Positions 18,253 to 27,119 of a DNA stretch of 40,792 nucleotides are shown here, piece after piece. Source of the DNA: a virus; the IMG/VR virus record IMGVR_UViG_3300042559_000319, positions 1-40,792 of that record; one strand, written 5' to 3'. A program made the translations under genes and the position numbers. How positions within the stretch are numbered: position 1 is the first letter of the stretch; every line of letters begins with the position of its first letter. Under the pieces are notes generated by a model. It was not told where the DNA came from and did not search any database. It saw only the letters and a list, made by a program, of their open reading frames with translations.

Positions 18253-18376
18253 TTAGCGCTCGTTTACAGGCTTCTACAAATACATCCCAGTCGTATTTAT
18301 CTCCAAAAGCCGAGTATGCGGCAATGGTTGAGATTACTTCTCGGGGAAGTTCAATGGTGATCGTGTCTTTCTTCAT
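18236..18376 (-). CDS. Small protein (46 aa), uncharacterised
   Basis: ATG 18376 has GGAGAG five bases upstream. The 46-residue product starts KKDTITIELPREVISTIAAY and ends in a helix with WDVFVEACKRALNDED. The 'TIELPREV' start resembles small ribbon-helix-helix or CopG-like proteins, which often begin with a strand then a helix, but the length is short and this is only a hint. The gene overlaps the end of the oxygenase gene by 26 bases and the start of the 74-residue gene by 17. Confidence 0.6.
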   Translation of the reverse strand: MKKDTITIELPREVISTIAAYSAFGDKYDWDVFVEACKRALNDEDS

Positions 18377-19115
18377 CAGGCTCTCCAGTCTCTGAAATAT
18401 CTCGATTGTTGTGAATCAGCATAACCCCATCAGTGTTATCACATTTTGGGGGGATGTATCCCTCAATGTGGGAGTTAGGGTCATCAAATACAGGGTCAGT
18501 CTTTAGGTTTGGGTCATTAGTTACAAATGTACTAATGATAAATTTATCCCCTGATAGGGGGACTAGTCCAGCATGTCTGAACGTCCAAGTAGCCGGAAAT
18601 ACTAGCACACGGCCTTTTTTGGCAGAAACTGTTATTTCCCAGTCAACAAATTCTGTTTCCCCACCCACTTCGACATCGTTTAAATAAATAACTAGAGCCA
18701 AAATACGATTGTTATCTCCCAAAGACCACGGAACAGAATCGACATGAGTGCGATAATAACCTAGGTTTTGATGATATCTCTGTAACTGATATCCCGAATC
18801 TTTGAGATATATGGCCTTATGTAGAGTGTCGATCTTCTCAACATAGTGGGCTAGAACCCCAGTAAGTGCTGTATGTACCTCATAATCCAACTGGGCAAGG
18901 CTTCGGTGCCACCAATCTGATGGGGCCTCTTCCGTCCTAAGGTCTACGGAACATTTTACGTCAGACATAACTCCACTAATAGTCTTTCCGGGGGTGAAAG
19001 ACTGTTCATTAGTAATGAAGTCAGACGACAGTCTGTCGCACACATCTGACGGTATGGCATTATCATATACAGCGACGTATTTCTGCTTACCTAGTGGGTA
19101 ATACACCTCAAGCAT
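18351..19115 (-). CDS. 2-oxoglutarate/Fe(II)-dependent oxygenase (prolyl-hydroxylase-like)
   Basis: This 254-residue protein has the full facial triad of the superfamily: H124-x-D126 in YRTHVDSVPW and distal H181 in TFRHAGLVPL. K191 (GDKFIISTF) is a candidate for 2-oxoglutarate binding, at the normal distance after the distal His. LALVIYLNDVEVGGETEF is the typical strand pair of prolyl-4-hydroxylase-like enzymes. These enzymes hydroxylate side chains using O2 and 2-oxoglutarate. The gene is two genes after a collagen-like fibre gene, so the fibre is the natural candidate substrate, though this is inference. The last about 50 residues are acidic and His-rich at the end. Confidence 0.88.
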   Translation of the reverse strand: MLEVYYPLGKQKYVAVYDNAIPSDVCDRLSSDFITNEQSFTPGKTISGVMSDVKCSVDLRTEEAPSDWWHRSLAQLDYEVHTALTGVLAHYVEKIDTLHKAIYLKDSGYQLQRYHQNLGYYRTHVDSVPWSLGDNNRILALVIYLNDVEVGGETEFVDWEITVSAKKGRVLVFPATWTFRHAGLVPLSGDKFIISTFVTNDPNLKTDPVFDDPNSHIEGYIPPKCDNTDGVMLIHNNRDISETGEPDEERHDHH

Positions 19116-19122
19116 GAGACCC

Positions 19123-19884
19123 TCATTGATTTATAGATACTGGAAATCCATATCCTACAGGACTATCCACAATCTTATCGTGGAGCCAATACGATAGTTC
19201 ATCAGTCATATCGGGAGGAGTGGTGCGTTCTCTAGCGTCAGTGCTACCGCTTAGATATTTCACTACAAATTGATCAGGTACCTCGGAGCGAATCCACTCC
19301 TCTAGTTCTGCTGGAACATCAAGTTCAGTAAGTAGGAGGTCTGCCGTGATGGCTGGCGCAACGTCTGCATCTAAAAGAATATGAGCGTCTCTCCACTCAA
19401 ACATAAGTTTGAGTAATTCTTGGAGAGTGCGGGCTTCCACATTCCAGTGAGATACCACAAATAGGTCGTCGGCATCTTTGTCGTGAGCCTCTATGTAAGA
19501 AATGTATCCGTGCGGAAGTAGTGAAATAACGGGCGAACTAATGCGTAGCAAATTCTGATCCCCAAACCCGTTCTCGCACATGATGCCATATACGGGATTG
19601 GGGTCTAGTTTTCCGCAAGAACAATTACCGTTGCCATCGGGTTCGTGAAACGACATAGGGCCGATAACCCCACCGTCGCATCTTCCCTCTTCATTCCATT
19701 CAAGAGGAATGAATTGTGCTGAAGCAAACCCGAACATACCAATTTGGTCTGTCCCGTTAACTGTCTTAGCAAAATAGCCGACAGCACCCATATGGTTGGG
19801 TTCGTCTTGTATAAGGATCTTAGGTCGTTCTAGGGGTGGTAACCCCTCTGCTATTGACGGTTCTTGCTCATTGACATCGCTCAT
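19123..19884 (-). CDS. Uncharacterised protein between fibre and oxygenase
   Basis: The product is 253 residues and mostly beta-rich with an acidic character. Visible points are a Cys-bearing stretch (RCDGGVIGPM, then NGNCSCGKLDPNPVYGIMCEN) that could hold a metal or disulfide, and a helical segment ARTLQELLKLMFEWRDAHIL. GGAG lies upstream of ATG 19884. It stands between the collagen-like fibre and the oxygenase with gaps of only 11 and 7 bases, so the three are surely co-transcribed. It could be a fibre chaperone or an accessory of the enzyme; there is no sequence proof. Confidence 0.7.
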   Translation of the reverse strand: MSDVNEQEPSIAEGLPPLERPKILIQDEPNHMGAVGYFAKTVNGTDQIGMFGFASAQFIPLEWNEEGRCDGGVIGPMSFHEPDGNGNCSCGKLDPNPVYGIMCENGFGDQNLLRISSPVISLLPHGYISYIEAHDKDADDLFVVSHWNVEARTLQELLKLMFEWRDAHILLDADVAPAITADLLLTELDVPAELEEWIRSEVPDQFVVKYLSGSTDARERTTPPDMTDELSYWLHDKIVDSPVGYGFPVSINQ

Positions 19885-19895
19885 TGTTTACACTC

Positions 19896-22800
19896 CTACG
19901 CATACCTGATGATGTAGTAAATATCAACTACATCCACGTTGTGGCTGTGGTTGACACTGTTGTCTCCAGCATTAGAAGTAATGGTGTGACTGTGGTTAGC
20001 ACTTTCATTACCAGCATTTGATGTGATGGTGTGGGCGTGGTTAGCAGATATACCCCCAGTGTTGCCTGAGAAACCGTGGGTGTGGTTAACAGTAATACCT
20101 GAAGTAGTCTTACTAGTGTTGCCGCCGAAGTAGTTGTGAGCATGATCAGCACTTACGTTGCCTGTGTTACCACTATAGGCATGAGTATGGTTGGCGCTCT
20201 CAGTAGCCGAATTAGAAGTAATTGTATGAACATGGCTAGCGCTCTGATTACCCGCATTAGAGGTAATTGTATGGCTGTGATTGACACTCTGACTAGAAGT
20301 TGTAGTTGTCTTAGGTACACTCGGGACCGCTCCAGCAGCAAGACCTAGGGCAAGCCTTGTAGTGAAGTTCGGAAGATTGAAAGTACCACTACCTGATCCG
20401 TACCGATCTCCGATAGCGGCGTACAGATCGGCGTACGTCCCTGTAGTTGATAGAGACGCTCCGTTACAAAGTACCCATCCACTAGGCAGTGATGTGTATG
20501 CAGGAGCGGTACCACCAGTGGCTGCACCCGGCCACATAACAATAGAACCAATAGGGCCTGATGACCCTTGGAATCCCTGATTTCCTTGATTTCCTTGATT
20601 TCCTTGGTTACCCTGCGACCCTTGGTTCCCTTGCGACCCCTGATTTCCTTGGAAGCCTTGTGCTCCGGTATCGCCTTGGAATCCTTGGCTTCCGTCGTTT
20701 CCTTGAGGTCCTTGGAAACCCGTAGCGCCGGGTATTCCTTCATTACCTTGGTTTCCTTGGGAACCGGTATCGCCTTGCGAACCCTGAGAGCCTGTATCCC
20801 CCTGCGCTCCAGTTTCACCTTGGTTACCCTGAGAACCTGTAGACCCCTGAACACCTTGTGTTCCTTGGGAACCGGTATCTCCTTGATTTCCCTGTGTACC
20901 CTGAGAACCTGTGTCGCCCTGATTTCCTTGAGCGCCAACATCACCCTGAGTTCCTTGGGAGCCGGTAAGACCTTGATTGCCTTGGAAGCCTTGCGCTCCA
21001 TCGACACCTTGCGTTCCTTGGAACCCCTGATGACCCTGAACGCCCTGAACGCCGTCGTCACCTTGGTGCCCTTGATAGCCCTGAGGTCCATCGTTTCCTT
21101 GGAATCCTTGGTTGCCTTGAAAGCCCTGAGAACCGGTATCGCCTTGGGCACCTTCGTACCCCTGCGGACCTATAGCACCTTGTTCGCCCTGTGCTCCGGT
21201 GTCACCTTGATGACCTTGTACGCCCTGCGTACCTTGAGCGCCGGTATCGCCCTGCGCTCCGGTGTCTCCCTGTGTTCCTTGAGCACCAGTGTCACCCTGA
21301 GCGCCGGTATCGCCTTGAGTACCTTGAGGCCCTTCGTTACCAGTAGATCCTTGAACGCCATCGGCTCCCTGAGAACCTTGAGCGCCGGTAGCACCAGCAG
21401 AGCCTTGCGGTCCTTCGCCACCCATGTCGCCCTGAGATCCCTGAACACCAGTGTCACCCTGAGGACCTGTGTCTCCCTGAGTACCTTGCGGACCCACTTC
21501 TCCTTGCGCCCCAGTGTCGCCCTGAGACCCCTGTGAGCCTGTTGAACCCTGCGCCCCGGTATTTCCTTGGGTTCCCTGTGCTCCAGTGTCTCCTTGGTGA
21601 CCCTGAGCGCCTTCGATGCCTTGGAAACCCTGAACACCGTCAGAACCCTGAACACCCTGAGCACCAGCGGCTCCTTGATGGCCTTGGAATCCCTGAGGTC
21701 CGGCATCGCCTTGGAATCCCTGAGGACCTGTGTCACCTTGTGACCCAACATCACCCTGAGAGCCTTGGGAACCTGTCTCTCCCTGTACGCCCTGAGAACC
21801 GGTATCCCCTTGAGGACCTGTGTCTCCCTGATATCCCTGAGGACCTTGGTCTCCTTGAGCGCCTACGCTTCCTTGAGCGCCAGTATCACCTTGTGGTCCG
21901 GTGTCTCCCTGAGTTCCTTGCGTACCCTGCGATCCCTGAGGACCTTCAATAGTCCCCACATTGTCCCAGCCGGAGCCGTCCCATACATATAGATCGCCAT
22001 CGACAAGATACCCGTCACCGAGTGACCCGGTCGGGTGGTCTGCGATTAATTCAGCGTAAGTAGCATATGAGCCGAGGATAGTGACTGAGGTACCGTCGTT
22101 ACCTTGGTATCCCTGAGTCCCCTGTACGCCTTGAGTGCCTTGTACGCCCTGCGTACCTTGGCTTCCCTGAGCACCGGTATCACCTTGATACCCCTGTACG
22201 CCCTGAGAACCGGTATCCCCTTGATTTCCTTGGAAACCTTGATTTCCTTGGAAGCCTTGTACACCCTGATTACCTTGAGTTCCTTGAAACCCTTGATTTC
22301 CTTGTGAACCTTGTACGCCTTGATGGCCCTGAGGTCCGCTCAGACCCTGAGGACCCTCGTTACCCTGAGCGCCTTCTACGCCTTGAAATCCCTGATGTCC
22401 TTGAACACCTTGAGAACCTTGTGCTCCGGTGTCACCCTGCGTCCCTTGGGAACCAGTAAATCCCTGTACACCCTGAGAGCCAGTGTCACCTTGATTTCCC
22501 TGTGACCCTTGGTTGCCTTGATTACCTTGGAAACCCTGATTGCCTTGCGTTCCCTGAACACCTTGGTTGCCCTGATTACCTTGAAATCCTTGGTGACCCT
22601 GAACACCCTGATGTCCTTGGAAGCCTTGAGGGCCTTCTGATCCTACTTGACCCTGATATCCCTGATGGCCTTGGACACCCTGTGTCCCCTGAACGCCTTG
22701 AAACCCTTGGTGTCCTTGTACGCCCTGAGAACCAACGTCGCCTTGGAAACCCTGAACACCCTGATGTCCTTGGACACCCTGATACCCCTGATTACCTTGC

Positions 22801-23522
22801 GAACCGGTCTCTCCTTGGAAACCCTGATGACCTTGGTGACCCTGTGATCCCTGAGATCCTTCAAACCCTTGTGGGCCGATAGAACCTTGTGATCCCTGAG
22901 AACCTACTTCGCCTTGAGAACCTTGCGTACCCTGATACCCAACGTCACCTTGATGACCTTGTGTACCCTGTACGCCTTCTTCGCCTTGGTGACCCTGTAC
23001 GCCCTGTGAGCCTGTGTCTCCTTGGGGTCCCTGAGAACCTTGGACTCCTTGTACGCCATCTACACCCTGAGGACCTTGGTAACCGTTAGACCCCTGATTA
23101 CCTTGGTACCCCTGATAGCCACGCTGTCCCTGCGGACCTTGCGAACCGGTAGTTCCCTGCGCTCCTGTAACTCCCTGAGGACCTACAGCGCCTTGGTTAC
23201 CTTGATAGCCCCTAGCGCCTTGATACCCCTGATAACCACGGGTACCTTGGTTACCTTGATAACCCTGAGCACCACGCTGGCCGGACGAACCTTGGTATCC
23301 CTGCGTACCACGAGAACCCTGATTGCCTTGGGCACCTTCGTCTCCCTCTGCTCCTTGGGCACCCTGATTCCCCTGAGCGCCCTGAGGGCCTCGGGGTCCT
23401 GACAAAGGGGTAGTAATGGTCCCTACGGTATTTGTAGGAGCACCGGGAGTAATGATGATCTCAGTGGGGGCCTGAGGGTTGATAGTGACCGGAGAATTAT
23501 TGTTAACGGGAATGATTTCCAT
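19896..23522 (-). CDS. Collagen-like fibre protein with tail-collar and HxH-rich tip
   Basis: This 1208-residue protein starts with about 40 non-repetitive residues. Two long Gly-X-Y stretches follow (about residues 42-475 and 527-985), split by a small non-collagen module of about 50 residues (ILGSYATYAELIADHPTG ... LYVWDGSGWDNVG). Residue Y is mostly Gln; proline appears at X (GPQ). From about residue 988 a tail-collar domain (GSIVMWPGAATGG, PSGWVLCNGA) is followed by eight HxH motifs in near-repeated units. HxH motifs bind iron in trimeric phage needle tips such as T4 gp37. It is probably a trimeric, very long, thin fibre. GAGG precedes ATG 23522. Confidence 0.92.
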   Translation of the reverse strand: MEIIPVNNNSPVTINPQAPTEIIITPGAPTNTVGTITTPLSGPRGPQGAQGNQGAQGAEGDEGAQGNQGSRGTQGYQGSSGQRGAQGYQGNQGTRGYQGYQGARGYQGNQGAVGPQGVTGAQGTTGSQGPQGQRGYQGYQGNQGSNGYQGPQGVDGVQGVQGSQGPQGDTGSQGVQGHQGEEGVQGTQGHQGDVGYQGTQGSQGEVGSQGSQGSIGPQGFEGSQGSQGHQGHQGFQGETGSQGNQGYQGVQGHQGVQGFQGDVGSQGVQGHQGFQGVQGTQGVQGHQGYQGQVGSEGPQGFQGHQGVQGHQGFQGNQGNQGVQGTQGNQGFQGNQGNQGSQGNQGDTGSQGVQGFTGSQGTQGDTGAQGSQGVQGHQGFQGVEGAQGNEGPQGLSGPQGHQGVQGSQGNQGFQGTQGNQGVQGFQGNQGFQGNQGDTGSQGVQGYQGDTGAQGSQGTQGVQGTQGVQGTQGYQGNDGTSVTILGSYATYAELIADHPTGSLGDGYLVDGDLYVWDGSGWDNVGTIEGPQGSQGTQGTQGDTGPQGDTGAQGSVGAQGDQGPQGYQGDTGPQGDTGSQGVQGETGSQGSQGDVGSQGDTGPQGFQGDAGPQGFQGHQGAAGAQGVQGSDGVQGFQGIEGAQGHQGDTGAQGTQGNTGAQGSTGSQGSQGDTGAQGEVGPQGTQGDTGPQGDTGVQGSQGDMGGEGPQGSAGATGAQGSQGADGVQGSTGNEGPQGTQGDTGAQGDTGAQGTQGDTGAQGDTGAQGTQGVQGHQGDTGAQGEQGAIGPQGYEGAQGDTGSQGFQGNQGFQGNDGPQGYQGHQGDDGVQGVQGHQGFQGTQGVDGAQGFQGNQGLTGSQGTQGDVGAQGNQGDTGSQGTQGNQGDTGSQGTQGVQGSTGSQGNQGETGAQGDTGSQGSQGDTGSQGNQGNEGIPGATGFQGPQGNDGSQGFQGDTGAQGFQGNQGSQGNQGSQGNQGNQGNQGNQGFQGSSGPIGSIVMWPGAATGGTAPAYTSLPSGWVLCNGASLSTTGTYADLYAAIGDRYGSGSGTFNLPNFTTRLALGLAAGAVPSVPKTTTTSSQSVNHSHTITSNAGNQSASHVHTITSNSATESANHTHAYSGNTGNVSADHAHNYFGGNTSKTTSGITVNHTHGFSGNTGGISANHAHTITSNAGNESANHSHTITSNAGDNSVNHSHNVDVVDIYYIIRYA
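20566..23400 (-). repeat. Nine-base-periodic Gly-X-Y coding repeat
   Basis: Almost the whole segment is built of codon triplets GGN-NNN-CAR and near variants, broken once at about 21945-22095. The plus strand shows endless variations of the unit CCTTGNNNN. The repeat keeps several frames open on both strands, which yields spurious open frames. Such DNA favours recombination and length change. Confidence 0.9.
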
Positions 23523-24205: not shown

Positions 24206-25813
24206 CTACATCTTGATGTAGAAGTAGAGACTAAGTGTGGGAGGCTGAACGGTAAACGACGTACCGCTGCCAATAGTTCTATGTTCGGGAAGAGTGTGCG
24301 TATGCGCCGCAGCCGTACTCATAGTGTCAATAGTGTGAGTATGGGTTGATGAAGTACCGATTGAATGAAAGTGATTAGGAGCGCCGGTTACCGTGATGTT
24401 TGCAGTACCAAACATTGAATGAGGCTCAGGGAGAGTTCTATAGGTATGGCTAGCATCCGCAAAAGGAATATCCATACAACTATCGTGGTAAGCACCGGGG
24501 AAGGTAGCGACAATAGGGAAGCCGCCTTCCCAGTAATGCCAATGTCCTGAGTCAGAAGCGCTATGACCGTGGGCACCAGCGTCTCCGGTACCGCCAGTAT
24601 GTCCGTCGGCTGTATGAGTATGTGCCCCTCCACCTGCTGTCGTACCGGTATGAGCGTGGGCACCAGCCGCTTGTGTAGCGGTACCAGTACGGTGGCTATG
24701 AGGAGGTAGGTTTGCCTCGGTAAGAGTTACTGAGGAGCGTCCTGTACCGTCTAGTACGGTACCGTTGGTGGTTCCAATAGACCCTCCGGTAATATCACCA
24801 CCGCCAGCAGGGATACGTCCACGCATATCAGGCAGAGTGATGTTGCTACCTGATACCCATTCGGGGAACAGGGAAGGAAGATTGCCTGCCTCTGAGGTGG
24901 CGTAGATGCCACCTACTAGCGGTAACCACCCTGCCATTTTGTCAGGTGCCACAAGCGACTGAATGACGGAACCGGACGGAAGGTTAGGTTGGAGTGAAGT
25001 CCACTGTTTAGCGGCCTCGGTATCCAGTTTAACTACGCTGATATCACCGGTCGTGTTATCCACATAGACATCACCAATGTCTTTTGTAGACGCAGCAGGA
25101 CGACCTGCACCGTTACCCCACTCAATGGTTTCAGTGGTAATAACGTCTTTACCAGCAACAGTCGCTGACGAGGAGGCAGTAACTACATCTGCTGAGAACT
25201 CACCGGGAGTCCTGATAATACCGACACCGGAACGCTCAAGAGTAGTATCAACGACACTTGATCCGTCACCCCAAGAAATCTTGCCATTACCATTGATACT
25301 TACCTTGATATGAGTACCGCCACTGTCAAGGTTTTTAAGAATCATCGGTGTATCAACAGCAATGACTTCCGTCTGAAGGAAGTTACGCTTATCAATAACT
25401 CGTGATATACCGCTACCCCCCGAAGCCGGAATAAACACAGCAGCAAGCACAGTCATAGTGCTTGTTACATCAGGGAATACCGGATTAGCAGCAGGAGTAC
25501 CTGCTACTACTGCAAAGGGTGAAGCGAGGCTTGTATCGTAAACGATTAAGTCAAACCTAGCGGTAGCCGCTGGTGGTGATACGGAAAGATTAAGTCCCGG
25601 GGACAACGTATACAACTGACCTTCAACAACAAGAAGGTTAGGACCACCACCAACGGCTACAGTTGAGCCGCTGATAGAGATACTACAACCAGTAATAACA
25701 CCATATTGGCTGTTACCAAGGATCAGGAAATCGCCCTGATCCGGCTGTGCTGTCTGAAAGTCAGGAGCGAACGTATCGGCATTTGGGATACGGAACCCAT
25801 TACGAAGGGCCAT
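24206..25813 (-). CDS. Short tail-fibre protein with collar domain and HxH-rich tip
   Basis: This 535-residue protein has an N-terminal virion-attachment-like region (residues 1-170) of the type found in many phage fibre proteins (ALRNGFRIPNADTFAPDFQT, ARFDLIVYDTSLASPF). It then has a beta region and a tail-collar domain from about residue 282 (MAGWLPLVGGIYAT, ITLPDMRGRIPAGGG). The last third has eight HxH motifs (HSH, HAH, HTH, HGH, HWH, HFH and others), as in iron-binding fibre tips. It shares this tip style with the collagen-like protein but has no collagen repeat. Probably a receptor-binding or head-fibre protein. AGGAGC precedes ATG 25813. Confidence 0.85.
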   Translation of the reverse strand: MALRNGFRIPNADTFAPDFQTAQPDQGDFLILGNSQYGVITGCSISISGSTVAVGGGPNLLVVEGQLYTLSPGLNLSVSPPAATARFDLIVYDTSLASPFAVVAGTPAANPVFPDVTSTMTVLAAVFIPASGGSGISRVIDKRNFLQTEVIAVDTPMILKNLDSGGTHIKVSINGNGKISWGDGSSVVDTTLERSGVGIIRTPGEFSADVVTASSSATVAGKDVITTETIEWGNGAGRPAASTKDIGDVYVDNTTGDISVVKLDTEAAKQWTSLQPNLPSGSVIQSLVAPDKMAGWLPLVGGIYATSEAGNLPSLFPEWVSGSNITLPDMRGRIPAGGGDITGGSIGTTNGTVLDGTGRSSVTLTEANLPPHSHRTGTATQAAGAHAHTGTTAGGGAHTHTADGHTGGTGDAGAHGHSASDSGHWHYWEGGFPIVATFPGAYHDSCMDIPFADASHTYRTLPEPHSMFGTANITVTGAPNHFHSIGTSSTHTHTIDTMSTAAAHTHTLPEHRTIGSGTSFTVQPPTLSLYFYIKM

Positions 25814-25835: not shown

Positions 25836-27119
25836 TCAGTCAACAAGGACAGTAACGGTACCCTTAACGTCAACCTGACCATCCTTGTCAGTTGCGGTAA
25901 TGGTGTAAGTGCCGGGGGTGGCGTAGATGTGACTCAGGTCAAAGTTGGTGTCTTGACCATCACAGTCGGACCAACCGAACACTGTCACATATGCGTAGAC
26001 ACCATTCGGGGCGATAGTGATGCCATTGGCGTTAGCACCGACGTATTCAAAATCTTCAATGGTTTCCGTGTTGATGTCGATGTAGTACACGTCACCATTT
26101 CCATGAGTAACGTATGCAATATCGTCCTCATCGACCGCAATGGCCCACGGATAGTCCTCAGTAAGAACAAGATCAATAATTTCAAATGGGTCTGTGTCAA
26201 TGATAACTACACCGGCCTCACCGTTAAGTGCAACGGCAAGACGAGTTCCGGCGGCGTTCTTTGCAATACCGAACGGGTAATCGTGAGCGACAGCAGTGGG
26301 TCCAACTTCAATATTAGTGTAATCAACGAGGGTAGTAGCATCACTTTCAATGGCTGCAACCTGACCAAGTTCCCAAAGAGTGACGTAGAAAATACTACCG
26401 TCGTTGGAGAACACACCACGCATAGGCTCTGATCCGGCAACAGGGAATTCCAAGAAGCGATCAACTTCATCCGTAGCGGTATCGATGATATAGATGGAGT
26501 CATCCTCGGCGCAGGTGACCCAAAGTTCGGTACCGGCAGGGTTAATGACAACACCGGTCGGGTAAGCACCGACAGTAATTTCCTTGATGACCTCACGCTT
26601 AGCAGTGTCGATGACAAACACCCTGTCATCAAAGCCCTCTGTAGTTTGGCTAGAAGCGACATATACCTTACTACCGTCAGAGGTGGCAGTAATACCCCAT
26701 ACAAAGTAGTTGTTGGGGATAGCGATCTCGTCTAGGACCTGCTTGGATTGAAGATCCACGACACTAATACGACCGACTGGGTTGCCACTTTGGTCACCAG
26801 CCTCAGGCTGAGTGACGTAAGCGGTCTTGTTATCGGGAAGGATAGCCATCTCGTACGGGTTCGGATTATTAAACATGAACGGAACATCGACGACCTTGTT
26901 ACTGGTCTTAATACGAGAGATTGCACCACCCACTACCACGTCCTCTGTAGCAGTGCTGTCGCCCCAGTTAACGGTGTAGACGTTAGGAACCTGAAGGTTG
27001 TCAAACGTATAGGAACCGCTCCAGTCCTCAAGGACTGTGTTGGTACCTTCTTCGTCAGGAATGTCTACTACGCCGTCTCGGGCATTCATAGAAAGATAGT
27101 GGATGGTTGCAATACCCAT
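25836..27119 (-). CDS. YVTN beta-propeller inserted in a PKD-like domain (probable capsid/virion display protein)
   Basis: Residues about 72-380 form a YVTN-type beta-propeller. Units recur about every 40-45 residues with cores such as ISVVDLQSKQVLDEI, VFVIDTAKREVIKEI and IYIIDTATDEVDRF, each followed by G-x-x-x-x-x-D/P-x-G/D-x-x-x-Y/W-V. The N-terminus has YTVNWGDS (residues 48-55) and the C-terminus has HIYATPGTYTITATDKDGQ (397-415). These are the two halves of one PKD domain (W-G-D-G ... H-x-Y-x-x-P-G-T-Y-x-V). The propeller thus seems inserted into the PKD loop. Two genes after the capsid gene, it may be a head decoration. AAGGAG precedes ATG 27119. Confidence 0.85.
   Translation of the reverse strand: MGIATIHYLSMNARDGVVDIPDEEGTNTVLEDWSGSYTFDNLQVPNVYTVNWGDSTATEDVVVGGAISRIKTSNKVVDVPFMFNNPNPYEMAILPDNKTAYVTQPEAGDQSGNPVGRISVVDLQSKQVLDEIAIPNNYFVWGITATSDGSKVYVASSQTTEGFDDRVFVIDTAKREVIKEITVGAYPTGVVINPAGTELWVTCAEDDSIYIIDTATDEVDRFLEFPVAGSEPMRGVFSNDGSIFYVTLWELGQVAAIESDATTLVDYTNIEVGPTAVAHDYPFGIAKNAAGTRLAVALNGEAGVVIIDTDPFEIIDLVLTEDYPWAIAVDEDDIAYVTHGNGDVYYIDINTETIEDFEYVGANANGITIAPNGVYAYVTVFGWSDCDGQDTNFDLSHIYATPGTYTITATDKDGQVDVKGTVTVLVD

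Follow-up and report, generated by a model that had tools for sequence, protein, structure and literature searches.

The collar and HxH rod tip of a phage tail fibre, a 253-residue protein of an unnamed family (here termed mid) and a 2OG-Fe(II) oxygenase have almost certainly been inherited together across unrelated phage backbones, as judged from comparison of their sequences. We hypothesize that the three constitute a transferable cassette for maturation of the fibre tip, a reading that we hold to be somewhat probable, and the tip protein is on balance the likely, if putative, substrate of the oxygenase. The collagen shaft of the fibre, which lies beside the oxygenase in the phage studied here, is shown by the comparison of related loci to behave as an interchangeable spacer.

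The stretch of DNA analysed (the window) is a 40.8-kb IMG/VR fragment (IMGVR_UViG_3300042559_000319; 40,792 nucleotides) of a BRock-like myophage, and it carries contractile-tail genes (sheath, tube, baseplate, portal, terminase). Capsid and terminase are nearest to those of the Streptomyces myophages BRock and GiJojo, which have the head/tail backbone and the fibre locus in common with the window (MCP 65% identical). At this locus, located between capsid and sheath, BRock and GiJojo carry another fibre, and a phage search returned no oxygenase match for them. The operon of a 1208-residue fibre, a 253-residue protein and an oxygenase described in the initial annotation is confirmed by the open reading frames (Table 1): the three genes form a tight minus-strand operon with 11 and 7 nt between successive genes, and each downstream ATG is preceded by an AG-rich, Shine-Dalgarno-like stretch. 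A second collar-type fibre, at 24206-25813 of the window, also has 8 HxH motifs, with another C-terminus and with neither rod lysine nor cassette, and provides an internal contrast. The neighbouring 427-aa protein (25836-27119) displays weak PKD and beta-propeller matches and is retained beside the fibre genes in close relatives.

Table 1. Features of the fibre operon, with positions in the window.
Feature	Position	Strand	Basis or remark
2OG-Fe(II) oxygenase, 254 aa	18351..19115	-	PF13640, phrog_61, invariant catalytic residues, dN/dS
Mid protein, 253 aa, unnamed family	19123..19884	-	28 related loci, alignment
Collagen-like tail fibre, 1208 aa	19896..23522	-	PF01391 E 1.5e-143, PF07484 E 8.4e-15
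Fibre collagen block 1, aa 42-479, 146 triplets	22086..23399	-	
Fibre collagen block 2, aa 527-994, 156 triplets	20541..21944	-	
Fibre tail collar domain, aa 992-1056	20355..20549	-	PF07484
HxH rod of fibre tip, aa 1082-1194	19941..20279	-	8 HxH motifs
K1138 codon, only lysine of the HxH rod, loop H-A-H-N-Y-F-G-G-N-T-S-K	20109..20111	-	
Non-canonical fibre C-terminus NVDVVDIYYIIRYA, lacking the Asn that collar-type ends usually have before IIK	19899..19940	-	

The fibre consists of two collagen blocks, followed by a tail-collar domain and the HxH rod; the collar domain and the eight HxH motifs were missing from the initial annotation. Six of the seven spacings between motifs in the rod are 15 residues. 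Repeated HxH motifs and a presumed trimeric rod are common to this C-terminal region and to the iron-binding tips of T4 gp37 (2XGF), P2 gpV, R-pyocin and Alteromonas phage R22Y. In the fibres of T4 gp37, P2 gpV and R-pyocin, HxH pairs bind iron and probably serve as reference points during folding (PMC6116203). The tip may, by analogy, be a metal-centred trimer, in which three rod chains would fold round metal ions held by the HxH pairs. Metal binding by the tip is proposed from the motif only, because a single-sequence phmmer search of PDB sequences returned no match to a solved fibre, T4 gp37 included, at the sequence level. Unlike the T4 gp37-type tips, the rod of the cassette comes after a collar domain; an oxygenase gene stands behind the tip, and none is reported at this place for the phages that carry those fibres. 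A typical cassette tip comprises the collar domain and usually 5-12 HxH motifs; for T4 gp37, the reported number of irons is seven.

Pairing of the collagen-like fibre with the oxygenase had been suggested in the initial annotation, and the adjacency of the two in the window is real. A hydroxylation of the Gly-X-Y region, for instance at X-site Pro, Asn or Asp, would be in line with this adjacency, with prolyl 4-hydroxylases as the nearest solved relatives of the enzyme by sequence, and with an X site that holds Pro in 24 triplets and Asn or Asp in many. However, the Y site is Gln in 215 of the 302 triplets and Pro in just one (between 0 and 2 in the remaining cassette fibres that were examined), which confirms the near absence of Y-site proline pointed out earlier and differs from what a collagen prolyl 4-hydroxylase would require. 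Lysine is found in none of the 302 triplets.

The distribution of collagen among related phages also argues against such a substrate. In the sister phage L009, whose capsid protein is 98% identical to that of the window, the collagen of the fibre is 97-100% identical over residues 1-400 and 88-100% over residues 600-800, and similarity drops to 21-26% in the tip. From there up to the conserved gene g270 the L009 locus encodes other collar proteins and neither mid nor oxygenase, and PF13640 finds no match in its 35-kb record. By this comparison, tip, mid and oxygenase have been replaced as one block, with the collagen retained. Collagen fibres without an oxygenase are also seen in a 117-kb relative, L011. 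The reverse arrangement, an oxygenase kept in the absence of any collagen-like gene, was named in the initial annotation as refuting its proposal, and it was observed: records of 128, 90, 85, 40 and 36 kb (possibly fragments) carry tip, mid and oxygenase and gave no PF01391 match, and the majority of tips in mid-bearing loci have no collagen. Loci L198 and L202 have mid and oxygenase in common and tips that are 89.6% identical over 280 aa, whereas the fibre of L198 contains 65 collagen triplets and that of L202 contains 0. Within 8 kb of the oxygenases of S-TIP37, Rhizobium phage RHph_TM21B, Sf-FS3 and ACG-2014f, no collagen was found. All relatives are metagenomic and possibly fragments, and hence absence from a single record is weak evidence; the pattern is consistent over many records. 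Since co-inheritance fails in both directions, we reject collagen as the substrate, and modification of the Gly-X-Y region appears very improbable. The initial caveat that another substrate must be considered was well placed, as collagen is not a constant partner.

The constant partners are the tip and mid. A scan for the mid family displays 28 loci, with an HxH-rich gene directly upstream of mid in 27 and an oxygenase downstream in 23, and the gene order is nearly always tip-mid-oxygenase. On a different backbone, locus L002 carries a tip 83%, a mid 87-88% and an oxygenase 93% identical to those of the window. A set of 80 loci was selected by the oxygenase only, and HxH-rich genes and collagen were sought within 7 kb. 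An HxH-rich gene was present in 5 of the 6 closest oxygenase relatives versus 1 of the 74 others, this one being an 82-aa ORF on the opposite strand that is probably spurious; collagen was rare (2/6 and 3/74, respectively). Chance adjacency of tip, mid and oxygenase was set aside given the order in the mid-bearing loci, this survey and the C-terminus association described below.

Features of the tip itself track the cassette. A scan for tips returned 80 loci; once near-copies had been removed, there were 25 tips with the cassette and 26 that had room downstream but no cassette. The canonical C-terminus (Asn before IIK, or an RNxALL variant) occurs in 0 of the 25 cassette tips and in 20 of the 26 other HxH tips (Fisher P 4e-9, uncorrected for shared ancestry). 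Apart from a single loop lysine, K1138 in the window, cassette tips have almost no Lys or Arg in their HxH rods. This aromatic-lysine loop, HxH-(1-4)-[YF]-(0-9)-K, is present in 23/25 cassette tips versus 2/27 others (Fisher P 4e-10, uncorrected for shared ancestry and with the pattern defined post hoc). The pattern is a lead and not a test, because it was seen first and counted afterwards. The two cassette tips that lack the loop are extra tandem tips of L195, the third tip of which has it. A counter-example is L218, where a loop-bearing tip (L218:4164-5585) is found with neither oxygenase nor 253-aa protein in a 26.8-kb fragment. The L218 tip closely resembles that of L217.

The oxygenase is shown, as far as sequence comparison can tell, to be a conserved and selected enzyme of a distinct clade. 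It matches PF13640 (E 5.6e-11; 43.7 bits, above the curated cut-off of 27) and phrog_61 (E 8.8e-36), and its HxD...H...K site, comprising the iron triad H124, D126 and H181 and the basic 2OG-binding residue K191, is intact as initially annotated and identical in 25 of 25 related cassette oxygenases examined. A dN/dS of 0.08-0.17 versus two relatives indicates that the gene is maintained. Superfamily and active site are common to P4H-type 2OG oxygenases (PF13640; B. anthracis P4H, 3ITQ/5HV0; PBCV-1 P4H, 5C5T), and the B. anthracis enzyme displays a partial sequence match over residues 112-178 (E 1.5e-6). What sets the window oxygenase apart from these P4H enzymes is its linkage to an HxH tip and a 253-aa protein instead of proline-rich peptides. 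When 91 oxygenases were placed in a maximum-likelihood tree, all 17 distinct cassette members (17/17) grouped in one clade of 20 rows with support 98/94. The remaining three rows, L109, L111 and L112, are all without mid. These three oxygenases adjoin tryptophan-halogenase-like flavoproteins and further 2OG oxygenases.

Phage 2OG oxygenases are common, and their functions are reported as not specifically investigated (PMC9602691). The window enzyme could be thought of as an ordinary auxiliary metabolic gene acting on a host molecule (the 2-oxoglutarate pool, a surface glycan, a nucleotide), placed beside the fibre by chance or as a moron. Cyanophages indeed have many such oxygenase genes away from fibres. 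One paper describes a phage with 24 of them and proposes that they act in the metabolism of the host (PMC9602691). Cyanophage and pelagiphage 2OG-Fe(II) oxygenases belong to the same phrog_61 and are 24-36% identical to the window oxygenase; however, they fall outside the cassette clade and, at the loci examined, are not beside HxH tips. Moreover, the oxygenases of the cassette belong to a single clade and, on different backbones, stand in a conserved order beside one class of tip; exchange at the fibre locus takes tip, mid and oxygenase as a unit. This makes a metabolic role quite improbable.

The mid protein is conserved in the alignment at R68-C69-D70, H80, C88, C90 and E163-W164. Sixteen members of the family gave no match above chance to Pfam or PHROGs, a search of 50,697 phage records found none either, and a scan of bacterial genomes with one degenerate pattern returned no relatives. 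A structure predicted from 16 sequences is of moderate confidence (pLDDT 66, pTM 0.72); the model has no match among PDB folds and three among uncharacterised viral predicted structures. Homology to a known tail-fibre assembly protein was hence not found by Pfam, PHROG or PDB fold. The hint in the initial annotation that the 253-residue protein may take part is upheld insofar as mid belongs to the conserved cassette; its role we infer from its position directly behind the tip, which suggests a folding helper or cap.

The conserved Cys, His and Asp of mid may also bind metal, and this leads to the main rival of tip hydroxylation, in which the oxygenase acts on mid, or the two proteins, as a complex, load the HxH tip with iron, the His-rich tail of the oxygenase serving as metal carrier. 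Cassette oxygenases tend to have His-rich C-termini (3.3 His in the last 25 residues, versus 1.3): that of the window ends in DEERHDHH, and several others have tails like HDHPHPHPH- or HHHDHDHHHEGEV. The near-constant order tip-mid-oxygenase and the iron bound by HxH motifs in T4 gp37 and R-pyocin fibres (PMC6116203) are in keeping with this alternative as well. However, some oxygenases have no His tail (e.g. L107 and L110), the catalytic site is fully invariant, a constraint that metal carriage by itself would not impose, and mid occurs without an oxygenase in L188/L189, L194 and L241. The tips of L188/L189 have four HxH motifs and that of L241 has two, with no aromatic-lysine loop in either. 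We therefore regard iron loading, or action on mid, as fairly improbable.

Returning to tip maturation, we hypothesize that mid would assist the folding of the altered C-terminus of the tip, or cap it, in a role like that of Tfa or gp38, and that the oxygenase would hydroxylate a residue of the tip. The first candidate for this residue is the single lysine of the aromatic-lysine loop, K1138; given the post hoc nature of the pattern, we deem it rather unlikely that this very lysine is modified. Hydroxylation of the tip would tune receptor binding or tip stability. In its most specific form, the proposal is that a dedicated phage lysyl (or other) hydroxylase modifies a single conserved residue in the phage's own metal-centred receptor-binding tip, together with a new partner protein, such that a three-gene mobile cassette would yield an enzymatically matured adhesin. 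Taken as a whole this is tentative and somewhat unlikely.

In T4 gp37/gp38 and Tfa tail-fibre assembly, the helper gene downstream of the tip is exchanged together with it. Joint exchange was also found here, in the replacement at L009 and the transfer to L002, whereas the helper of the cassette belongs to an unrelated, unnamed family and is accompanied by an oxidising enzyme. Phage 2OG oxygenases, HxH tips and tip-helper exchange are each known; the cassette joining all three appears to be new, as our literature search found no published report of such a cassette or of a phage 2OG oxygenase linked to a fibre. By inheritance, one clade of oxygenases goes with a particular structural protein, down to a particular loop, and this renders the substrate directly testable. 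If the proposal is true, the phage would use enzymatic oxidation to tune its host-touching tip, and the shaft of the fibre, the tip and the enzyme that modifies it would be parts that can be separated and swapped.

Other genes are found at or near the position of the cassette. Behind the collagen fibre of L011 (14090-18820), the slot is occupied by a methyltransferase-like ORF (200 aa) and a glycosyltransferase-like ORF (373 aa), as though different modifying enzymes could be accommodated there. A variant order is present in L217 (5604-8327), with tip, oxygenase, a glycosyltransferase-like ORF and the 253-aa family protein. A thioredoxin-like ORF follows the cassette in L107 (6745-7131), L197 (4687-5079) and L213 (7511-7897). 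Finally, L100 (6632-9512), a more distant relative by capsid, encodes two oxygenase-like ORFs and one carbamoyltransferase-like ORF amid short collagen-like fibre genes.
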